Assembly: GCA_028288625.1 (NCBI GenBank)
Contig: JAQBNI010000114.1
Coordinates: 1-57,269, forward strand
Length of the DNA stretch: 57,269 bases
Reading direction: 5' to 3'
Origin: Bacteroidota bacterium
GTDB lineage: Bacteria; Bacteroidota; Bacteroidia; Chitinophagales; JADIYW01
A program made the translations under genes and the position numbers. Under the pieces are notes generated by a model. That model worked only from the letters and a program-made list of their open reading frames with translations, did not search any database and was not told the origin of the DNA. The first letter of the stretch is position 1. Each line of letters opens with the position of its first letter. Of this stretch, positions 3,630 through 9,252 are shown piece by piece.

Positions 3630-4493
3630 ATGGCGATAAAAAAACCGGACTGGAATAAGTGGCTTGAAAAATTGAAGAACGTTTATCGTTTTCAGATTGT
3701 AGACGAAAAAAGCTATGATGTGAAAATGGTATTAGAGCTTAACCGGCTGAATGTGATCGTAGTTACGGGCTTGTTACTCACTTTTTTTACCCTCTTAAAT
3801 TTCCTTTTGATCGCATTTACTCCCTTAAAACAATACATTCCGGGCTATGGATCTTCGTCGGGCAGGAAGGAAGCAATAAAGATGAGTTTGAAGGCTGAAG
3901 AACTGGAAGACAAGATGAATGCACAACAAAAATATGTGACCAATCTCCAGAATATACTGAATGATAAAGTGGTGGTGGATGCGGTGAAGACGAAGCTTAA
4001 AAAAACGAAGGTAGATACGGGGATCCTGAGTGTGAAAGCGACCGAAGAATCGCAGTTATTACAAGACTTTGAAACCGGTTTGCAGAATGCCGAACTGATG
4101 AAATCCATCCGCGATTCTAAAACAAATGCGCTGAATAATTTAAGGCTCGGGAAGCCGGTTTCCGGAAAGATGATCTCGGGGTTTGCTGCTAACCATTCGA
4201 ATGTTGTTTATGCCGCCAAGACGGATGAAGAAGTTAGGGCAGTGTTGAGCGGCAGCGTAATCATGACGGGTACTACCGAAACAAACAACGCATACATCGT
4301 TATCCAGTCTGAAAACCAGCTTGTTTACATATTTAAAAATAACAGCAAAATATTAAAGAAAACCGGTAACTTCGTTCATGCAGGGGAAGCGGTTGCGATC
4401 GCAGGAAAAATTCCGGGATCCAATATTTATGCTTCATTGATTGAGCTCTGGTATAAAGGACAAACTTTTGATGCTTCAAAATTCATAAAATAG
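3630..4493 (+). CDS. Membrane-anchored LytM/M23-like protein, probably catalytically inactive
   Basis: 287 aa: cytoplasmic N-terminus (~1-40), one membrane helix (~42-64), a charged coiled-coil-like periplasmic segment (~85-170), then a LytM/M23-like beta domain (~175-285). Active M23 enzymes need an HxxxD motif and a C-terminal HxH. Here only H189 remains of the first (ANHSNVVYAA), and the place of HLHFE is taken by ASLIELWYKG, so zinc binding and hydrolysis look lost. Such domains usually act as activators or scaffolds, as in EnvC/NlpD. The gene ends 5 bp before a bactofilin gene; bactofilin/M23 pairs are known from other phyla (Csd1-CcmA, LmdC-BacA). An envelope-shaping role is inferred. 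Confidence 0.8.
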   Translation: MAIKKPDWNKWLEKLKNVYRFQIVDEKSYDVKMVLELNRLNVIVVTGLLLTFFTLLNFLLIAFTPLKQYIPGYGSSSGRKEAIKMSLKAEELEDKMNAQQKYVTNLQNILNDKVVVDAVKTKLKKTKVDTGILSVKATEESQLLQDFETGLQNAELMKSIRDSKTNALNNLRLGKPVSGKMISGFAANHSNVVYAAKTDEEVRAVLSGSVIMTGTTETNNAYIVIQSENQLVYIFKNNSKILKKTGNFVHAGEAVAIAGKIPGSNIYASLIELWYKGQTFDASKFIK

Positions 4494-4498
4494 TTAAT

Positions 4499-4933
4499 AT
4501 GTTTTCAAAAATTACTTCTAAAAGCAACATCGAAACCATGGTAGCGAACAAAATCAACGAAGGCACAACGATCAGCGGGGATGTATCTGCACAAACTGAC
4601 ATCCGTCTCGACGGAAAAGTTACAGGCAATATCCATTGCTCTTCTAAAGTTGTGATCGGGAATACCGCAAACATCACGGGGCATATTAAATGCAACGACC
4701 TTACCATTGAGGGAAAGGTGAAGGGCAACATTGAAGTGAGCGGTGTTTTGTTTTTCTGTGCCAGTGCAGTTTTTGACGGCGATGTGAAATATAAAAAACT
4801 GATCGTTGAAGAAGGCGCGAACATTACAGGCTCGCTGGTAAATATGGCTGCCGTAAAACCTGTACAACAAATTGTGCAAAATGGACAACAATCCCAAACA
4901 CAACAAACCGCAACCGTCCAAACCGCCGGTTAA
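4499..4933 (+). CDS. Bactofilin family polymer-forming cytoskeletal protein
   Basis: 144 aa. The centre (~20-115) has the regularly spaced Gly/Val/Ile beta-helix repeat of bactofilins, with segments such as TTISGDV, DIRLDGKVTGNI, GNTANITGHIKC and TIEGKVKGNIEV. Termini are short and disordered; the C-terminus is Gln/Thr-rich. Bactofilins form nucleotide-independent filaments under the membrane that position cell-wall enzymes. It is co-directional with the degenerate LytM gene 5 bp upstream, and its 3' end overlaps the AtpZ/AtpI-like gene by ~50 bp in another frame, so the four genes from 3630 to 5461 look like one transcript. Confidence 0.92.
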   Translation: MFSKITSKSNIETMVANKINEGTTISGDVSAQTDIRLDGKVTGNIHCSSKVVIGNTANITGHIKCNDLTIEGKVKGNIEVSGVLFFCASAVFDGDVKYKKLIVEEGANITGSLVNMAAVKPVQQIVQNGQQSQTQQTATVQTAG

Positions 4934-5589: not shown

Positions 5590-6129
5590 ATGAAATTCAG
5601 CTCGTTTTTATTTTTATCCGCGATATTTTTTATTGTGATGACGGGCTTTAAGCCTCCGAAAAATACAGACCCGAAAAATGACATCTTATATAAGAAGTAC
5701 GGTGGTGATATTGAAAAAATGATGGCAGGCGAAAGAAGAGAAGATTCACTGGCACATCCATATTTATATGAAGATAAAAAAGAAGCAGTGGATACTTCGC
5801 CGGGCATTGATGATGAATCGCACATTCTTGAACACGCGGAGATCATGCCGCAATTTCCCGACGGTGAAAAAGGATTAAAAGATTACATCGCAAGCGCAAC
5901 CGCATTTATCCCGGATACACTTGTTGGAAAGAAAGCAAACGTTACAATAAAATTTTATATCAATACTTTGGGTGATGCAAAAAATCCGAAGATCATAAAA
6001 ATCGATGACCCTTCTTTTGAATTGCAAACGATCATGATCGTTGACGGCATGCCTAAATGGATCCCGGGAAAACAAAACGGCAAGGAGATCAACTGCTATA
6101 TTACGCTGCCGATAAAATATGGGCAGTAG
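5590..6129 (+). CDS. TonB C-terminal domain protein
   Basis: 179 aa with an N-terminal hydrophobic signal or anchor (~3-20), a charged middle, and a TonB C-terminal domain (~85-179). The end VDGMPKWIPGKQNG...CYITLPIKY is the typical Bacteroidota TonB_C signature (MPxWxPGKQNGK). TonB proteins pass proton-motive energy to outer-membrane receptors. This version is short and lacks the long Pro-rich spacer of canonical TonB, so it may be a dedicated or accessory copy. No exbB/exbD lie nearby. It has its own promoter and marks the left border of the cassette-like region. Confidence 0.8.
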   Translation: MKFSSFLFLSAIFFIVMTGFKPPKNTDPKNDILYKKYGGDIEKMMAGERREDSLAHPYLYEDKKEAVDTSPGIDDESHILEHAEIMPQFPDGEKGLKDYIASATAFIPDTLVGKKANVTIKFYINTLGDAKNPKIIKIDDPSFELQTIMIVDGMPKWIPGKQNGKEINCYITLPIKYGQ

Positions 6130-6154
6130 ATTTAATGTGTTCTTCTATAAGCAA

Positions 6155-6161
6155 GTTAGGT
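6155..6161 (+). other. Possible integron-type core site (GTTAGGT)
   Basis: GTTAGGT in the context GCAAGTTAGGTGCAAG fits the integron recombination core GTTRRRY. It lies between the TonB-like gene and the first of three AT-rich single genes, 30 nt before its ATG, where the left cassette boundary would be expected. A heptamer alone is weak evidence; weight comes only from the palindromic sites downstream. Confidence 0.3.
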
Positions 6162-6190
6162 GCAAGTATTCATCAACAAACACAATAAAT

Positions 6191-6961
6191 ATGGCTGAAA
6201 CATTTTCTCCAAAAACACAAGAAGAATTAAAGTTCTATGTCTATGCACTTATAGATCCACGAGACAATAAAATTTTTTATATAGGCAAAGGTAATACTAA
6301 CCGAATTTTCTCTCATATAAATGAAGCAATCCAAAATCCTAAAGAAACTGAAAAATTAGAAACAATAAGATCAATAAAATCCGATAATCAAAAAGTAAAA
6401 CACTACATAATTCGTCATGGATTAGAAGAAAATGAAGCTATATTATTAGAATCTGTTTTAATAGATTTCTTAACCTACAAAGATTTTATTGAGATAAGTA
6501 AAATTACAAATATTGCATCCGGACACCATTCTTTCAATCTCGGTATCAAGACAGCTGATGAATGCGAATTACTTTATAATTGTGAAGAATTAAAAAAAGA
6601 AGAAATCCAGCATAAAATTTTAGTGATTAACATAAATAAAACGTTTGAAATCGGTAGAAAAAAAAAGAAGATCCTTAATCCTATTTATAACAGGTCAAAT
6701 ATCTATGAAGCAACAAGAGGATGGTGGGTATTAGATAAAAATAGAGCAAAAAAATCAGACTATGTTTTAGCTGAATATAGAGGAATAATTAGGGCTGTAT
6801 TTAAGCCTCAGATTTGGCTTCAAGATATAGAAAACAGAGGGAATAAAAGATGGGGTTTCGAAGGATATGAAGTTAACGAAGAAGAAATTCTTAAAATATA
6901 TTTGAATAAGGAAGTACCAAAAATTAAAGGAATGGCAAATCCTATTCGTTATTTTGAATAA
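6191..6961 (+). CDS. GIY-YIG (LEM-3/COG3680-type) nuclease-domain protein
   Basis: 256 aa from the ATG at 6191. The N-terminal ~120 residues form a GIY-YIG fold variant with YVYALIDPRDNKIFYIGKG (motif Tyr residues at ~16-18 and ~30), followed by conserved His and Glu (ENEAILLESVLIDFL), as in the LEM-3-like subfamily. The C-terminal half (~145-256) has GWWVL, AEYRGIIRAVF and KRWGFEGYEV, which I do not recognise as a named domain, though it recurs in bacterial members by my recollection. Distinctly AT-rich compared with flanking genes. It stands alone and is followed by a palindromic site. Nuclease activity and target are unproven. Confidence 0.75.
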   Translation: MAETFSPKTQEELKFYVYALIDPRDNKIFYIGKGNTNRIFSHINEAIQNPKETEKLETIRSIKSDNQKVKHYIIRHGLEENEAILLESVLIDFLTYKDFIEISKITNIASGHHSFNLGIKTADECELLYNCEELKKEEIQHKILVININKTFEIGRKKKKILNPIYNRSNIYEATRGWWVLDKNRAKKSDYVLAEYRGIIRAVFKPQIWLQDIENRGNKRWGFEGYEVNEEEILKIYLNKEVPKIKGMANPIRYFE

Positions 6962-6984
6962 CTCAAACTACAATATACCTGCCC

Positions 6985-7110
6985 CTAACAGTGGCTGTGT
7001 CGCAATGGCTACAATTTACTTAGTTCAACTTCTTTCCTTTTCAAATCTTTTCACTAATTTCAAAGTTACGGTTATAAACTACGCCACAGCGGCAAGCCAC
7101 AACCGTTACC
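6985..7110 (+). repeat. attC-like imperfect palindrome 1 (126 bp)
   Basis: Starts CTAACAGTGGCT and ends AGCCACAACCGTTACC. The left arm (6986-7010) pairs with the right arm (7082-7108) through TAAC, TGGCT, CGC and TGGC blocks, with a 2-3 base offset between the arms, around a ~70-nt AT-rich loop. Length, TAAC...GTTA ends and extrahelical bases all resemble integron attC sites. The ends depart from strict GTTRRRY (GTTACCA). It directly follows the GIY-YIG gene and precedes the next ATG by 25 nt. Confidence 0.5.
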
Positions 7111-7134
7111 AGCAATGGTTAAAACATCAGCTTA

Positions 7135-7686
7135 ATGGACTTTGAACCGCTAAAAATAGAATTCAAGAATTTTAATAAGGACGAATTCGTTAAAATTCAA
7201 CTTATAAAATTCAAATTGGTGCAAAAAACATCTATTAAATACGCGACGAAGGTAAGTGTGGTTGCTTTTAGTTTGCTCGCTATAGCTCTATTAGTTTATA
7301 GTTCTGATCATAAATTTAATCCTCTTTTCCTTCTAGGAACAGTTGCCGTTTTATTTAGTGTAATTCTAATCTCAGGAATTATAAAGACAAGAAAAAAATA
7401 TCACAACGAAATACTACAACTTGCAAATAAATATCAAGAAATAAATATGGATTGTTGTTACGAAATATCAAATGATTCAATAAAATATACAGACAAAGAA
7501 AAAGTTATGGATTTTAAATGGAGTGTTTTTAAGTTTTTTGCACTTCATCAAGAATATTTAATAATCGCTTTAAATCATAACCTCGCAAGTGCTTATTTCT
7601 TTTCAAAAAAGGACTTAGACGATACTACATTTAATCGTCTTATAGAAATCGTTAAGACGAAACTTCAAGAAGATAAGATTAGATAA
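7135..7686 (+). CDS. YcxB-like membrane protein
   Basis: 183 aa. N-terminal cytoplasmic segment (~1-38), two adjacent membrane helices (~42-60 and ~65-86), then a C-terminal domain with CYEISNDSIKY...MDFKWSVFKFF...FFSKKDL, which fits the YcxB-like family of unknown function. Single AT-rich gene between two palindromic sites, as a gene cassette would be. No neighbour suggests a pathway. Confidence 0.65.
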   Translation: MDFEPLKIEFKNFNKDEFVKIQLIKFKLVQKTSIKYATKVSVVAFSLLAIALLVYSSDHKFNPLFLLGTVAVLFSVILISGIIKTRKKYHNEILQLANKYQEINMDCCYEISNDSIKYTDKEKVMDFKWSVFKFFALHQEYLIIALNHNLASAYFFSKKDLDDTTFNRLIEIVKTKLQEDKIR

Positions 7687-7696
7687 GTCCTCGGGT

Positions 7697-7739
7697 GGTA
7701 ACAGCAGCTAAGCGCAAGCGGCTAGCCGCAACCGTTACC
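7697..7739 (+). repeat. attC-like palindrome 2 (43 bp)
   Basis: Begins GGTAACAGCAGCTAAGCG and ends CGGCTAGCCGCAACCGTTACC-like: GGTAAC pairs with GTTACC, and an inner GCTA pairs with TAGC, with a 3-4 base asymmetry between arms. It follows the YcxB-like gene by 10 bp. The core CTAAGCGCA...GGCTAGCC...AA...GTTA recurs at 23259-23286 upstream of the SDR gene. It is shorter than typical attC sites. Confidence 0.5.
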
Positions 7740-7788
7740 TGTAATCTTTAGATAACAGTCTGCAATAAAAATTATATCTTTATATATA

Positions 7789-8229
7789 ATGATAAAATTT
7801 GCCAAAATATTTCTTTTTAGTCTCTTATTGATTTTATCTCTTTCAAGGTGTACTAAAAATAGTAGTAAGAAAAATTCATATAATCATATCGATACAGTAA
7901 GTCATCATATAGACACATTACCAACTGAAATAAAAAATTATAATCTGTATGATATTGTTACGCAAGTAGCAGATCATTATCCGCCTTACTCAATTCAAAC
8001 AACGCACGATCCAATTGATAGCAATCTTAAAATTACATTTTTTACTACTCTTGATAAATTTGCTATACGACAAGATACTTTTAGTAGAAACACTAACACA
8101 AACGATTTTATGAAAAACTCTGGTAGTTTTCCGATAGTGATATTTTATCATGATAGCATTTCAATGGCATATTTCGGTGGTGGTGTTGGAACGCAAACAT
8201 GGTATTATTTTTTAGGCAAACAATTATAA
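7789..8229 (+). CDS. Small lipoprotein of unknown function
   Basis: 146 aa. Signal peptide II (hydrophobic ~5-19) with lipobox-like LSRC and Cys21, then a Ser/Lys/Asn-rich linker and a compact domain (~50-146) containing DPIDSNLKITFFTTLDKFAIRQDTF and a Gly-rich GGGVGTQTW near the end. I recognise no family. AT-rich, the third single gene in the cassette-like run, with its start 50 nt after palindrome 2. Confidence 0.6.
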   Translation: MIKFAKIFLFSLLLILSLSRCTKNSSKKNSYNHIDTVSHHIDTLPTEIKNYNLYDIVTQVADHYPPYSIQTTHDPIDSNLKITFFTTLDKFAIRQDTFSRNTNTNDFMKNSGSFPIVIFYHDSISMAYFGGGVGTQTWYYFLGKQL

Positions 8230-8250
8230 CAGCACCTACCCGCAATGGCT
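8227..8250 (+). other. Left half of an attC-like site
   Basis: TAACAGCACCTACCCGCAATGGCT overlaps the lipoprotein stop and matches the left arm of palindrome 1 (TAACAG, then CGCAATGGCT) in the same position after the gene. No matching right arm with GTTA follows before the terminator, so the site looks truncated and may mark the right edge of the array. Confidence 0.4.
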
Positions 8251-8283
8251 GACGAATTCTAAAATTCAACAACATCATAATAC

Positions 8284-8318
8284 AAAAAAAAAAGCCGCAA
8301 CATTGCGGCTTTTCTTTT
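8284..8318. terminator. Bidirectional intrinsic terminator
   Basis: Stem GCCGCA/TGCGGC (8294-8309) with a short loop, flanked by a 10-A run on the left and T4CT6 on the right. It sits between convergent genes ending at 8229 (+) and 8335 (-) and can serve both. Confidence 0.85.
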
Positions 8319-8334
8319 TTATAATAGTTGAATC

Positions 8335-9252
8335 TTAATTTACAATCGGGATTAATCCTCTTATACCCATATCTACAACAGAATCTAAAACAGTAACATT
8401 ATCTGCACCATCAACCGGTTCATATAAGCCATCACCGTTCTTATCCTTCCATTCAAAACTTTTGTTGGTAGAAAGTGAAACCGTTATCACGATGTCGTGT
8501 GTTTCCGTTCCTGTGATCGTTAATGATACCGGGAACCTGCCCGTAACCACGCATGAACCTGCCGGAATCGGCGAAGTTAAAGCGATTGGATTAGGCACGG
8601 TCGTAGCGCCTGCAGGCGCCTGCCATACAAAGGGAGGAGGAGGAGATACAGGAATTCCTGAAGTAACTTCCGCACCACCAAAGCCTTGTGCCCTGTTTCC
8701 ATTGACGGCAACAGATTGGTTTTTTACCGTAAAGCTTTGTATGTAGGTATTAAACCCGATAAACGCAGCCACCGTTCCTCCCGGATAAAACGTTCCGTAA
8801 GTTGGATGTACATATTTCATCTTAATATCGAAATTCTGGTAAGCAAGCGAAACGCGTAACCACTTGTATGTGCCAGGCGTAACCTCGCTGATCGGAACAG
8901 AGAAAAATTCCTGTCCGTCACCTGCATTTATAGATTTTGAAAAATCAATTGCATTTGAACCTCCGGCAGTAGTTTCAGGAGCTTTATATAAAATATTTCC
9001 TCCGCCTAAAAACGTTAAGCTATCCGGCGCCAGCTCTATATAGTGCGCAGACATCGCGTTGAATTTCGGCGATTGTCCTGCATGTCCCGCCGGCATCGTG
9101 GCAGGATTTCCGAAATTATTCAACCTTACCTGTGTAGAGTCAAATTTAAATTTGAAGATCAGTTTTGGTCCGCTGGGCGTAACCGGTGTATTTGTTTTGC
9201 ACGAGATCATCAACGTGGAAAACGCTAAAAATAAGAATGATAATTTTTTCAT
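8335..9252 (-). CDS. Secreted lipoprotein of unknown function
   Basis: 305 aa with signal peptide II: lipobox region LMISC, Cys18, followed by Thr/Pro residues. The mature part is rich in beta-type segments, with FKFKFDSTQVRLNNFG near the N-terminus and a C-terminal half containing an ETHDIVITVSLSTNKSFEWKD strand block followed by DKNGDGLYEPVDGADN, a Ca-binding-like DxNxDG segment. No recognised family; probably a surface or periplasmic lipoprotein. Shares the terminator at 8284-8318. Confidence 0.65.
   Translation of the reverse strand: MKKLSFLFLAFSTLMISCKTNTPVTPSGPKLIFKFKFDSTQVRLNNFGNPATMPAGHAGQSPKFNAMSAHYIELAPDSLTFLGGGNILYKAPETTAGGSNAIDFSKSINAGDGQEFFSVPISEVTPGTYKWLRVSLAYQNFDIKMKYVHPTYGTFYPGGTVAAFIGFNTYIQSFTVKNQSVAVNGNRAQGFGGAEVTSGIPVSPPPPFVWQAPAGATTVPNPIALTSPIPAGSCVVTGRFPVSLTITGTETHDIVITVSLSTNKSFEWKDKNGDGLYEPVDGADNVTVLDSVVDMGIRGLIPIVN

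Follow-up and report, generated by a model that had tools for sequence, protein, structure and literature searches.

Integrons are a well-known gene-collecting device of bacteria, and their canonical anatomy, with attI and with attC sites carrying the R boxes GTTRRRY and RYYYAAC, is used for comparison throughout. The portion of PMC7790495 drawn on here says that the integrase IntI gained its I2 helix for the use of single-stranded hairpins, the helix docking bases that protrude from attC and blocking the second strand exchange, and that Xer proteins are without I2; it also describes the integration by Xer of IMEX elements and the CTX phage as a single-strand hairpin, a precedent for the use of a folded single strand by an Xer enzyme that has no I2. 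In an excerpt of PMC8138268 the IntI insertion is called essential for integron function, and an ‘integron-like’ subgroup of tyrosine recombinases is described in which the insertion is not fully conserved, so that related proteins have already been seen. As for surveys, the excerpts used here state that an earlier intI survey chose proteins with an additional domain or intI patch (PMC2426708), that a taxon-specific set of attC models holds none for Bacteroidetes (PMC8352920), and that for Bacteroidetes proper only In0 had earlier been known, followed by one complete integron, in Salinibacter, with IntegronFinder 2 (PMC9024848). The locus studied here lies in a 57,269-nucleotide stretch of a Bacteroidota genome (contig JAQBNI010000114.1, hereafter the window), where direct reading of the sequence shows three unrelated + strand genes in 2,205 bp (6130-8334) between two convergent genes. 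A sequence-only reading had proposed an integron-like array of three same-strand genes with palindromic sites, and the array is real, spanning 6140-8250. We find that the three genes are very likely cassettes of an integron-like system that is widespread in Bacteroidota and is probably run by an Xer/IntI-type recombinase without the IntI insertion. The evidence comes from sequence comparison, and comprises the sites and their covariation, an attI, the linkage and orientation of sites relative to the recombinase, cassettes shared or duplicated with ends at the cores, and an empty site in a relative.

The site family and the linked recombinase

Sites of this kind recur in the 3.7 Mb genome of the window. 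A pattern for their right arm, allowing up to 3 mismatches, gave 16 matches against 1 for its reversed control, and a model built from 17 of the genome's sites (R1, which includes site 1 of the window and is the weaker of our two models) gave 26 matches at 21 distinct places, 17 of these being the sites that built it. The second model, R2, was built from sites of other genomes that R1 had found, and it adds 20 matches in seven stretches of the window genome to the 180 in the recombinase loci described below. Most of the window-genome sites form arrays on four contigs (C55, C139, C148 and C64), each reaching to about 200 nt from a contig end. Lone or paired sites are also seen off these large arrays, on C46, C39 and C116 (R1) and on C83 (right-arm pattern), as if single cassettes had entered secondary places.

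Aligned on the bottom strand, the 17 sites share one long hairpin in which TAACG pairs with TGTTA; it has a GTT bulge and a stem of some 20 pairs, and its loop varies. The sites fall into size classes of 77-82 nt and about 123 nt. In this alignment 92.5% of the cells pair and 15 of the 25 stem pairs have changes on both sides, a count reached by 0 of 500 shuffles; one of the five covariation measures (further pair types) was reached by 35 of 500. Among 67 distinct sites from other genomes 21 of the 25 pairs covary, with 93.4% of cells pairing and 361 both-side changes, in an alignment that had been fitted to the model. By this pattern of substitution the palindromic sites are conserved as a fold. 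Folded individually, three short-class sites gave z scores of -4.8 to -5.1 on the bottom and -2.7 to -3.8 on the top strand, one long-class site gave -2.7 and -0.6, and the bottom strand was the more stable in 17 of 18 window-genome sites. GTTR is present in 164 of 172 sites, but only 7 of 172 have GTTRRRY and 11 of 174 have RYYYAAC, so that the GTTACC which the sequence-only reading had listed as a departure from GTTRRRY follows the rule of the wider system and is not a sign against it.

One array of the window genome, on C55, stands behind a 357-aa tyrosine recombinase (C55:12746-13816; locus L025 3747-4820). The protein matches Pfam PF00589 at 3.8e-42 and passes NCBIfam NF040815 (223.6 against a cut-off of 220), and it fails the IntI model (184.9 bits against 265) with a match that is split around positions 202-239; no protein of the window genome passes the IntI cut-off. 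The catalytic R, K, H, R and Y are found in 51 of 51 aligned relatives, and the H/W in 50 of 51. KDR and HxLRH are 58-59 aa apart in 79 of the 80 relatives (one unreadable) versus 100 aa in 27 of 30 IntI proteins (three unreadable), which amounts to an insertion of about 41 residues in the latter; among 29 order-level relatives one has an odd spacing of 303 and one gave no reading. An AlphaFold2 model of the Flavobacterium paronense recombinase (mean pLDDT 84.6, pTM 0.54) shows the two helices on either side of the I2 place and none between them; in Foldseek it is matched best by XerA, an archaeal Xer and the integron integrase 2a3v. In a quick tree of 63 of 146 recombinases (23 of the 80 from named loci and 15 of the 30 IntI), with long outgroup branches, the relatives and IntI are separate clades, and the deep branch order is not settled by this tree. 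The recombinases also have an N-terminal domain of about 60 residues (L025 3747-3960 and relatives) with the motif ARWS...WHLPD, and Pfam gave nothing above cut-off for the N-terminal 60-70 residues of three relatives.

On C55 the recombinase gene is followed by an inverted repeat and TATAAGCAAGTTA and then by the sites. The first cassette starts GTTATGTGCAACAATA, which is close to what the left flank of its own site reads as reverse complement. Two exact copies of the 14-mer CTATAAGCAAGTTA are present in the window genome, one in this attI and the other as the last 14 nt of the array head in the window; with up to 2 mismatches the attI pattern is not enriched (24 matches versus 42 in the control), so only the two exact copies carry weight. 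In 55 of 80 named loci the recombinase gene has such an attI behind it, in which two short inverted repeats precede TATAWACAAGTTR. A sister group of recombinases in the same genus (L046 in genome G005, L048 in G004 and L053 in G006) has a downstream inverted repeat as well, and in two of the three a different core, GAGTTA, comes after it; this group may represent a second subtype that has an attI of its own.

The 80 named loci are the best 80 of 586 candidates, fetched from species-representative genomes by recombinase protein alignment alone, and they come from Flavobacterium, Pedobacter, Pelobium, Kaistella, other Bacteroidota and one metagenome-assembled genome labelled Ignavibacteria. In recombinase loci, 69 of 69 R1 matches at E 0.01 are downstream in the recombinase's orientation, as are 177 of 180 R2 matches in the named loci, the exceptions being in L194 (upstream and opposite), L195 (one site read on the other strand) and L143 (8636-8755, upstream). 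Where at least 1.5 kb of downstream sequence is available a site was found in 39 of 44 loci. The contig ends less than 1.5 kb downstream in 36 of 80 loci versus less than 1.5 kb upstream in 3 of 80, a bias expected for repetitive arrays. A genome assembled as a single contig (G112) has 15 sites across about 27 kb, the Chryseobacterium plasmid NZ_CP041688.1 carries the recombinase and attI with four complete sites and a fifth that is cut, and a second plasmid (NZ_CP094530.1) has recombinase and attI with no R2 match in the stretch read. Some introns home to attC sites in integrons, and similarly an array on a plasmid of Chryseobacterium sp. SNU WT5 contains genes for the reverse transcriptase of a group II intron (ltrA) and for an IS110 transposase (L295 15765-17081).

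Across 296 genomes of the phylum, 132 of which have R2 sites, sites occur in 29 of 30 genomes with a close recombinase (E ≤1e-100) versus 103 of 266 others, and in 70 of 81 genomes with a recombinase at E ≤1e-60. By the same counts some sites are orphans or rely on other recombinases, and arrays without a recombinase were found on several contigs. The array in the window is one of these: no tyrosine integrase lies in the window, as the sequence-only reading had observed, the recombinase of this genome being on C55.

Cassette boundaries and the array in the window

If a cassette circularizes and its site closes on itself, its start should agree with its own site. This is what we observe: of 122 cassettes with a detected site on either side, 108 have 4 nt after their initial GTT that are complementary to the 4 nt preceding AAC in the cassette's own site, compared with 6.9 on average and at most 14 in 200 shuffles (174 of the 180 R2 matches were used; four partial ones, in L128, L153, L172 and L188, and two on the + strand, in L194 and L195, were dropped). 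Moreover, a 1,441-bp cassette stands first after attI in Flavobacterium denitrificans and mid-array in Pelobium manganitolerans at 93% identity, with homology stopping at the cores on both sides, and a 442-bp cassette is present three times in one F. paronense array at 99% identity with different neighbours, again ending at cores. Of 18 homologous pairs listed, these 3 are bounded by cores at both ends, one pair being between genera and two within F. paronense; the others have a core end on one side at most, overlap those three, or are diverged homologues. Together these observations suggest that the cassettes are mobile and are exchanged at their cores. The longest open reading frame (ORF) is on the array strand in 108 of the 122 cassettes and on the opposite strand in 10, and 4 have no ORF of 50 aa. 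A Pfam scan of 103 of 110 cassette ORFs matched 76 families, 69 of them in one ORF each, including an EcoRI methylase, SLATT, GmrSD, RES and a GIY-YIG relative, and some of this cargo resembles defence proteins.

In the window itself (Table 1), the nucleotides after GTT agree with the complement of the own site's left flank at 3 of 4 positions for cassette 1 and at 4 of 4 for cassette 2; the start of cassette 3 disagrees with the left flank of its own half-site. The right arms of sites 1 and 2 match at 77% over 43 nt. The third site is, as had been noticed from the letters, a left half, its right half not being seen and R2 giving no match there. Folding of the bottom strand, which the sequence-only reading had proposed as a check, did not set the complete sites apart: site 1 on its own gave z -1.18 on the + and -1.06 on the - strand and site 2 gave -0.28 and -0.93, no better than shuffles, and the stretch with the half-site gave -2.29 on the + strand. 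The evidence lies in the site family, that is in covariation and the R2 scores. A distant blastn search of site 1 against plasmids gave no match. An extra TAACAG is present at 7755-7760, about 20 nt into cassette 3, and could be a relic of a deleted cassette or a chance occurrence.

Table 1. Cassette array of the window and its flanking genes (positions are those of the window)
Feature	Positions	Strand	Basis
Left flanking gene, TonB C-terminal domain, outside the array	5590..6129	+	Pfam PF03544, 2.1e-8
attI-like site at head of array, TTCTTCTATAAGCAAGTTA	6140..6158	+	GTTA core at 6155-6158
Cassette 1	6156..7105	+	core-to-core span; crossover G^TT assumed
Cassette 1 gene, LEM-3-like GIY-YIG protein, 256 aa	6191..6961	+	Pfam PF22945, 9.8e-18
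Recombination site 1, attC-like, 123 nt, TAACAG...CAACCGTTA	6986..7108	+	R2 E 6.4e-12; member of the 17-site alignment
Cassette 2	7106..7734	+	core-to-core span
Cassette 2 gene, 183 aa, no family above cut-off	7135..7686	+	ORF list, Pfam, NCBIfam
Recombination site 2, minimal, 39 nt	7699..7737	+	R2 E 7.3e-5; basal stem present, apical part (inner stem and loop) gone
Cassette 3, truncated site	7735..8249	+	direct sequence reading
Cassette 3 gene, 146 aa, lipoprotein-like (N-terminus by eye)	7789..8229	+	ORF list; no family above cut-off
Left half of third site	8227..8249	+	direct reading
Right flanking gene, outside the array	8335..9252	-	ORF list; homologue in G001

Judged against a genome of the same genus (G001), the array is an insertion: there the homologues of the genes on either side are directly adjacent, their stop codons being 0 bp apart (L292 3095-4021 for the right and 4022-4570 for the left gene); gene order around the array is thus not conserved in the one comparable relative. 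In G002-G006 the anchor genes are on different contigs, and G007 is without one anchor. With regard to the gene identities that had been proposed from the letters, GIY-YIG stands for cassette 1, the YcxB-like assignment of cassette 2 was confirmed by neither Pfam nor NCBIfam, and the lipoprotein of cassette 3 is lipoprotein-like by reading of its N-terminus. The proteins of cassettes 2 and 3 have no Pfam family above cut-off and no NCBIfam family at E 0.01, and among the collected loci they matched only themselves. A 31% identical relative of the cassette 1 GIY-YIG protein sits between two sites in locus L187, and a scan of viral contigs with this protein gave one relative only, with 31 residues aligned.

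A possible mechanism and its competitors

We propose that a recombinase of the C55 type would act on the attI just downstream of its own gene, composed of inverted repeats and then TATAWACAAG^TTR, and likewise on the site that closes each cassette at its 3' end; in this site the bottom strand would form a long hairpin with a short bulge (GTT in the window genome) beside the GTTR/YAAC core. Circular cassettes would insert at attI or between cassettes by a crossover within GTT, giving same-strand arrays downstream of the recombinase; a crossover in GTT between two sites would excise a cassette and one between attI and a site would insert it, as in integron-type chemistry. The C55-type protein as catalyst, the free circles and the position of the crossover inside GTT are each probable in light of the comparisons above, and the folded bottom single strand as substrate is the least certain step. 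The window array, with an attI core and no recombinase, one minimal and one truncated site, could be a detached platform or could derive from insertion at a secondary attI-like place. At present we can only speculate that the N-terminal domain of about 60 residues may help the enzyme to handle hairpins without an I2 helix.

The same layout of core, folded site and same-strand cassettes would be left by a canonical integron remnant (CALIN), its attC sites belonging to an IntI system whose integrase was lost or is absent from the assembly, and IntI over cut-off does exist in 84 of the 296 genomes (phylum as defined by GTDB; 83 of these genomes are outside the window genome's class). However, the sites do not track IntI, occurring in 28 of 84 IntI genomes versus 104 of 212 others, and in 8 of 60 IntI genomes that lack the new recombinase. 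Around 30 IntI genes (those returned from the 84 genomes, with about 1.5 kb on each side) R2 gave 3 weak matches in 2 loci, at 26 bits or less, and in a genome with both systems (G065) there are 4 R2 matches beside the new recombinase and none in 6.6 kb around its own IntI. Together with the rarity of both R boxes in the sites and with an IntI cut-off that no protein of the window genome passes, this makes such a remnant very improbable. We therefore rejected a canonical integron or CALIN, the cut-off being failed, the insertion absent and the sites not tracking IntI. That the palindromes are terminators, repetitive extragenic palindrome (REP)-like repeats or RNA motifs behind the genes of an ordinary island can hardly be right: the sites do lie downstream of genes, and AT-rich accessory genes are common, but orientation, linkage to the recombinase, attI, start-to-site agreement and homology that stops at the cores speak against it. 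Rfam gave no family at gathering level on sites in five loci, where only three tRNAs passed, and all eleven of its matches on the window stretch were below the gathering score. An Rfam RNA family was rejected on the lack of gathering-level matches, and terminators or REP repeats on linkage, orientation and core-bounded homology.

More serious, though still unlikely, is that an ordinary double-strand tyrosine recombination takes place at the core, the palindrome being a protein-binding feature and no single strand being used. The recombinase resembles XerA and Xer enzymes and has no insertion, and the energetic advantage of the bottom strand is weak beyond the window genome (110 of 174 sites favour the bottom and 62 the top). 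Against this, the stem sequences diverge while pairing persists through the 361 both-side changes in 67 sites, as if it were the fold that is recognized. The loop is of variable length, whereas the difference in length between the arms is constant. Counts of wobble pairs are 185 to 47 in favour of the bottom strand (119 to 47 if one invariant G.T pair is left out, 41 of the 47 being in one pair).

Several observations weigh against the integron-like system as we propose it, the weak strand advantage among them. No attI was found in 25 of the 80 loci, several of which end within a few hundred nt. Sites are present in 62 of 215 genomes without a recombinase at E 1e-60 and in 54 of 155 with neither recombinase nor IntI, and among 60 order-level relatives 17 of the 35 that have a recombinase at E 1e-40 show R1 sites, as do 5 of the 25 that have none; G001, G017 and G057 have recombinase and attI with no R1 match. 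The co-occurrence is also partly circular, R2 having been built from recombinase-adjacent sites of which at least 2 of the 296 genomes are apparent sources (G316/L125 and G221/L131), and the Fisher tests on these genomes ignore relatedness. Finally, the empty site comes from a single genome, G001. Eight of the 296 genomes (G060, G065, G074, G152, G211, G316, G337 and G347) have both a canonical IntI and a close relative of the recombinase, and would be suited to asking whether both systems share sites.

Relation to known integrons

For the earlier claims our results mean that the integron reading holds in that the array is integron-like, with a recombinase, attI and array elsewhere in the genome, an empty site and cassettes common to different genera, and it does not hold for a canonical integron, the IntI insertion being absent. 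The search for intI and for further palindromes, which had also been suggested, divides in the same way: no IntI over cut-off was found, and the palindromes do recur, mostly in arrays, one of them behind a tyrosine recombinase. On balance we lean towards the broader view that a second integron lineage, of separate evolutionary origin and equipped with a recombinase, attI and hairpin sites of its own, exists in Bacteroidota. It would recombine folded single-stranded cassettes without an I2 helix and would have been overlooked because searches use IntI-type definitions. If this is true, a relative without I2 that works on hairpin cassettes would represent another solution to the debated I2 step or an earlier stage of it, and a gene-exchange network of Bacteroidota, reaching across families as in Flavobacterium and Pelobium, may have been overlooked. 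R1, R2 and the attI motif provide a means to annotate the system in genomes.

The C55 protein falls within NF040815 (recomb_XerA_Arch, ‘site-specific tyrosine recombinase/integron integrase’), a broad family to which no site, attI or cassette function is attached in the material examined, and NCBI gives the same label, ‘site-specific tyrosine recombinase/integron integrase’, to some relatives. IMEX elements and the CTX phage mimic dif and use the host XerCD, and unlike the new system they are not known to have cassette arrays or a dedicated attI. The ‘integron-like’ subgroup of PMC8138268 shares an incomplete insertion, and in the excerpt of that paper used here no insertion-less member is tied to cassettes; among the open-access matches listed, which do not cover preprints, we found no paper that joins insertion-less recombinases to cassette arrays. 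Similar to canonical integrons, the system has a recombinase gene with an adjacent attI, same-strand arrays in which most cassettes hold one gene, folded sites at the cassette 3' ends, cassette starts complementary to their own site, and recombinase-less clusters elsewhere. It differs from them in a recombinase without the insertion of about 41 residues between KDR and HxLRH, in a GTTR core without RRY, in a different site stem with a short bulge, in sites that do not track IntI, and in an attI that lies downstream of the recombinase gene with the array running in the same direction. The system is therefore best read as a distinct integron-like lineage.

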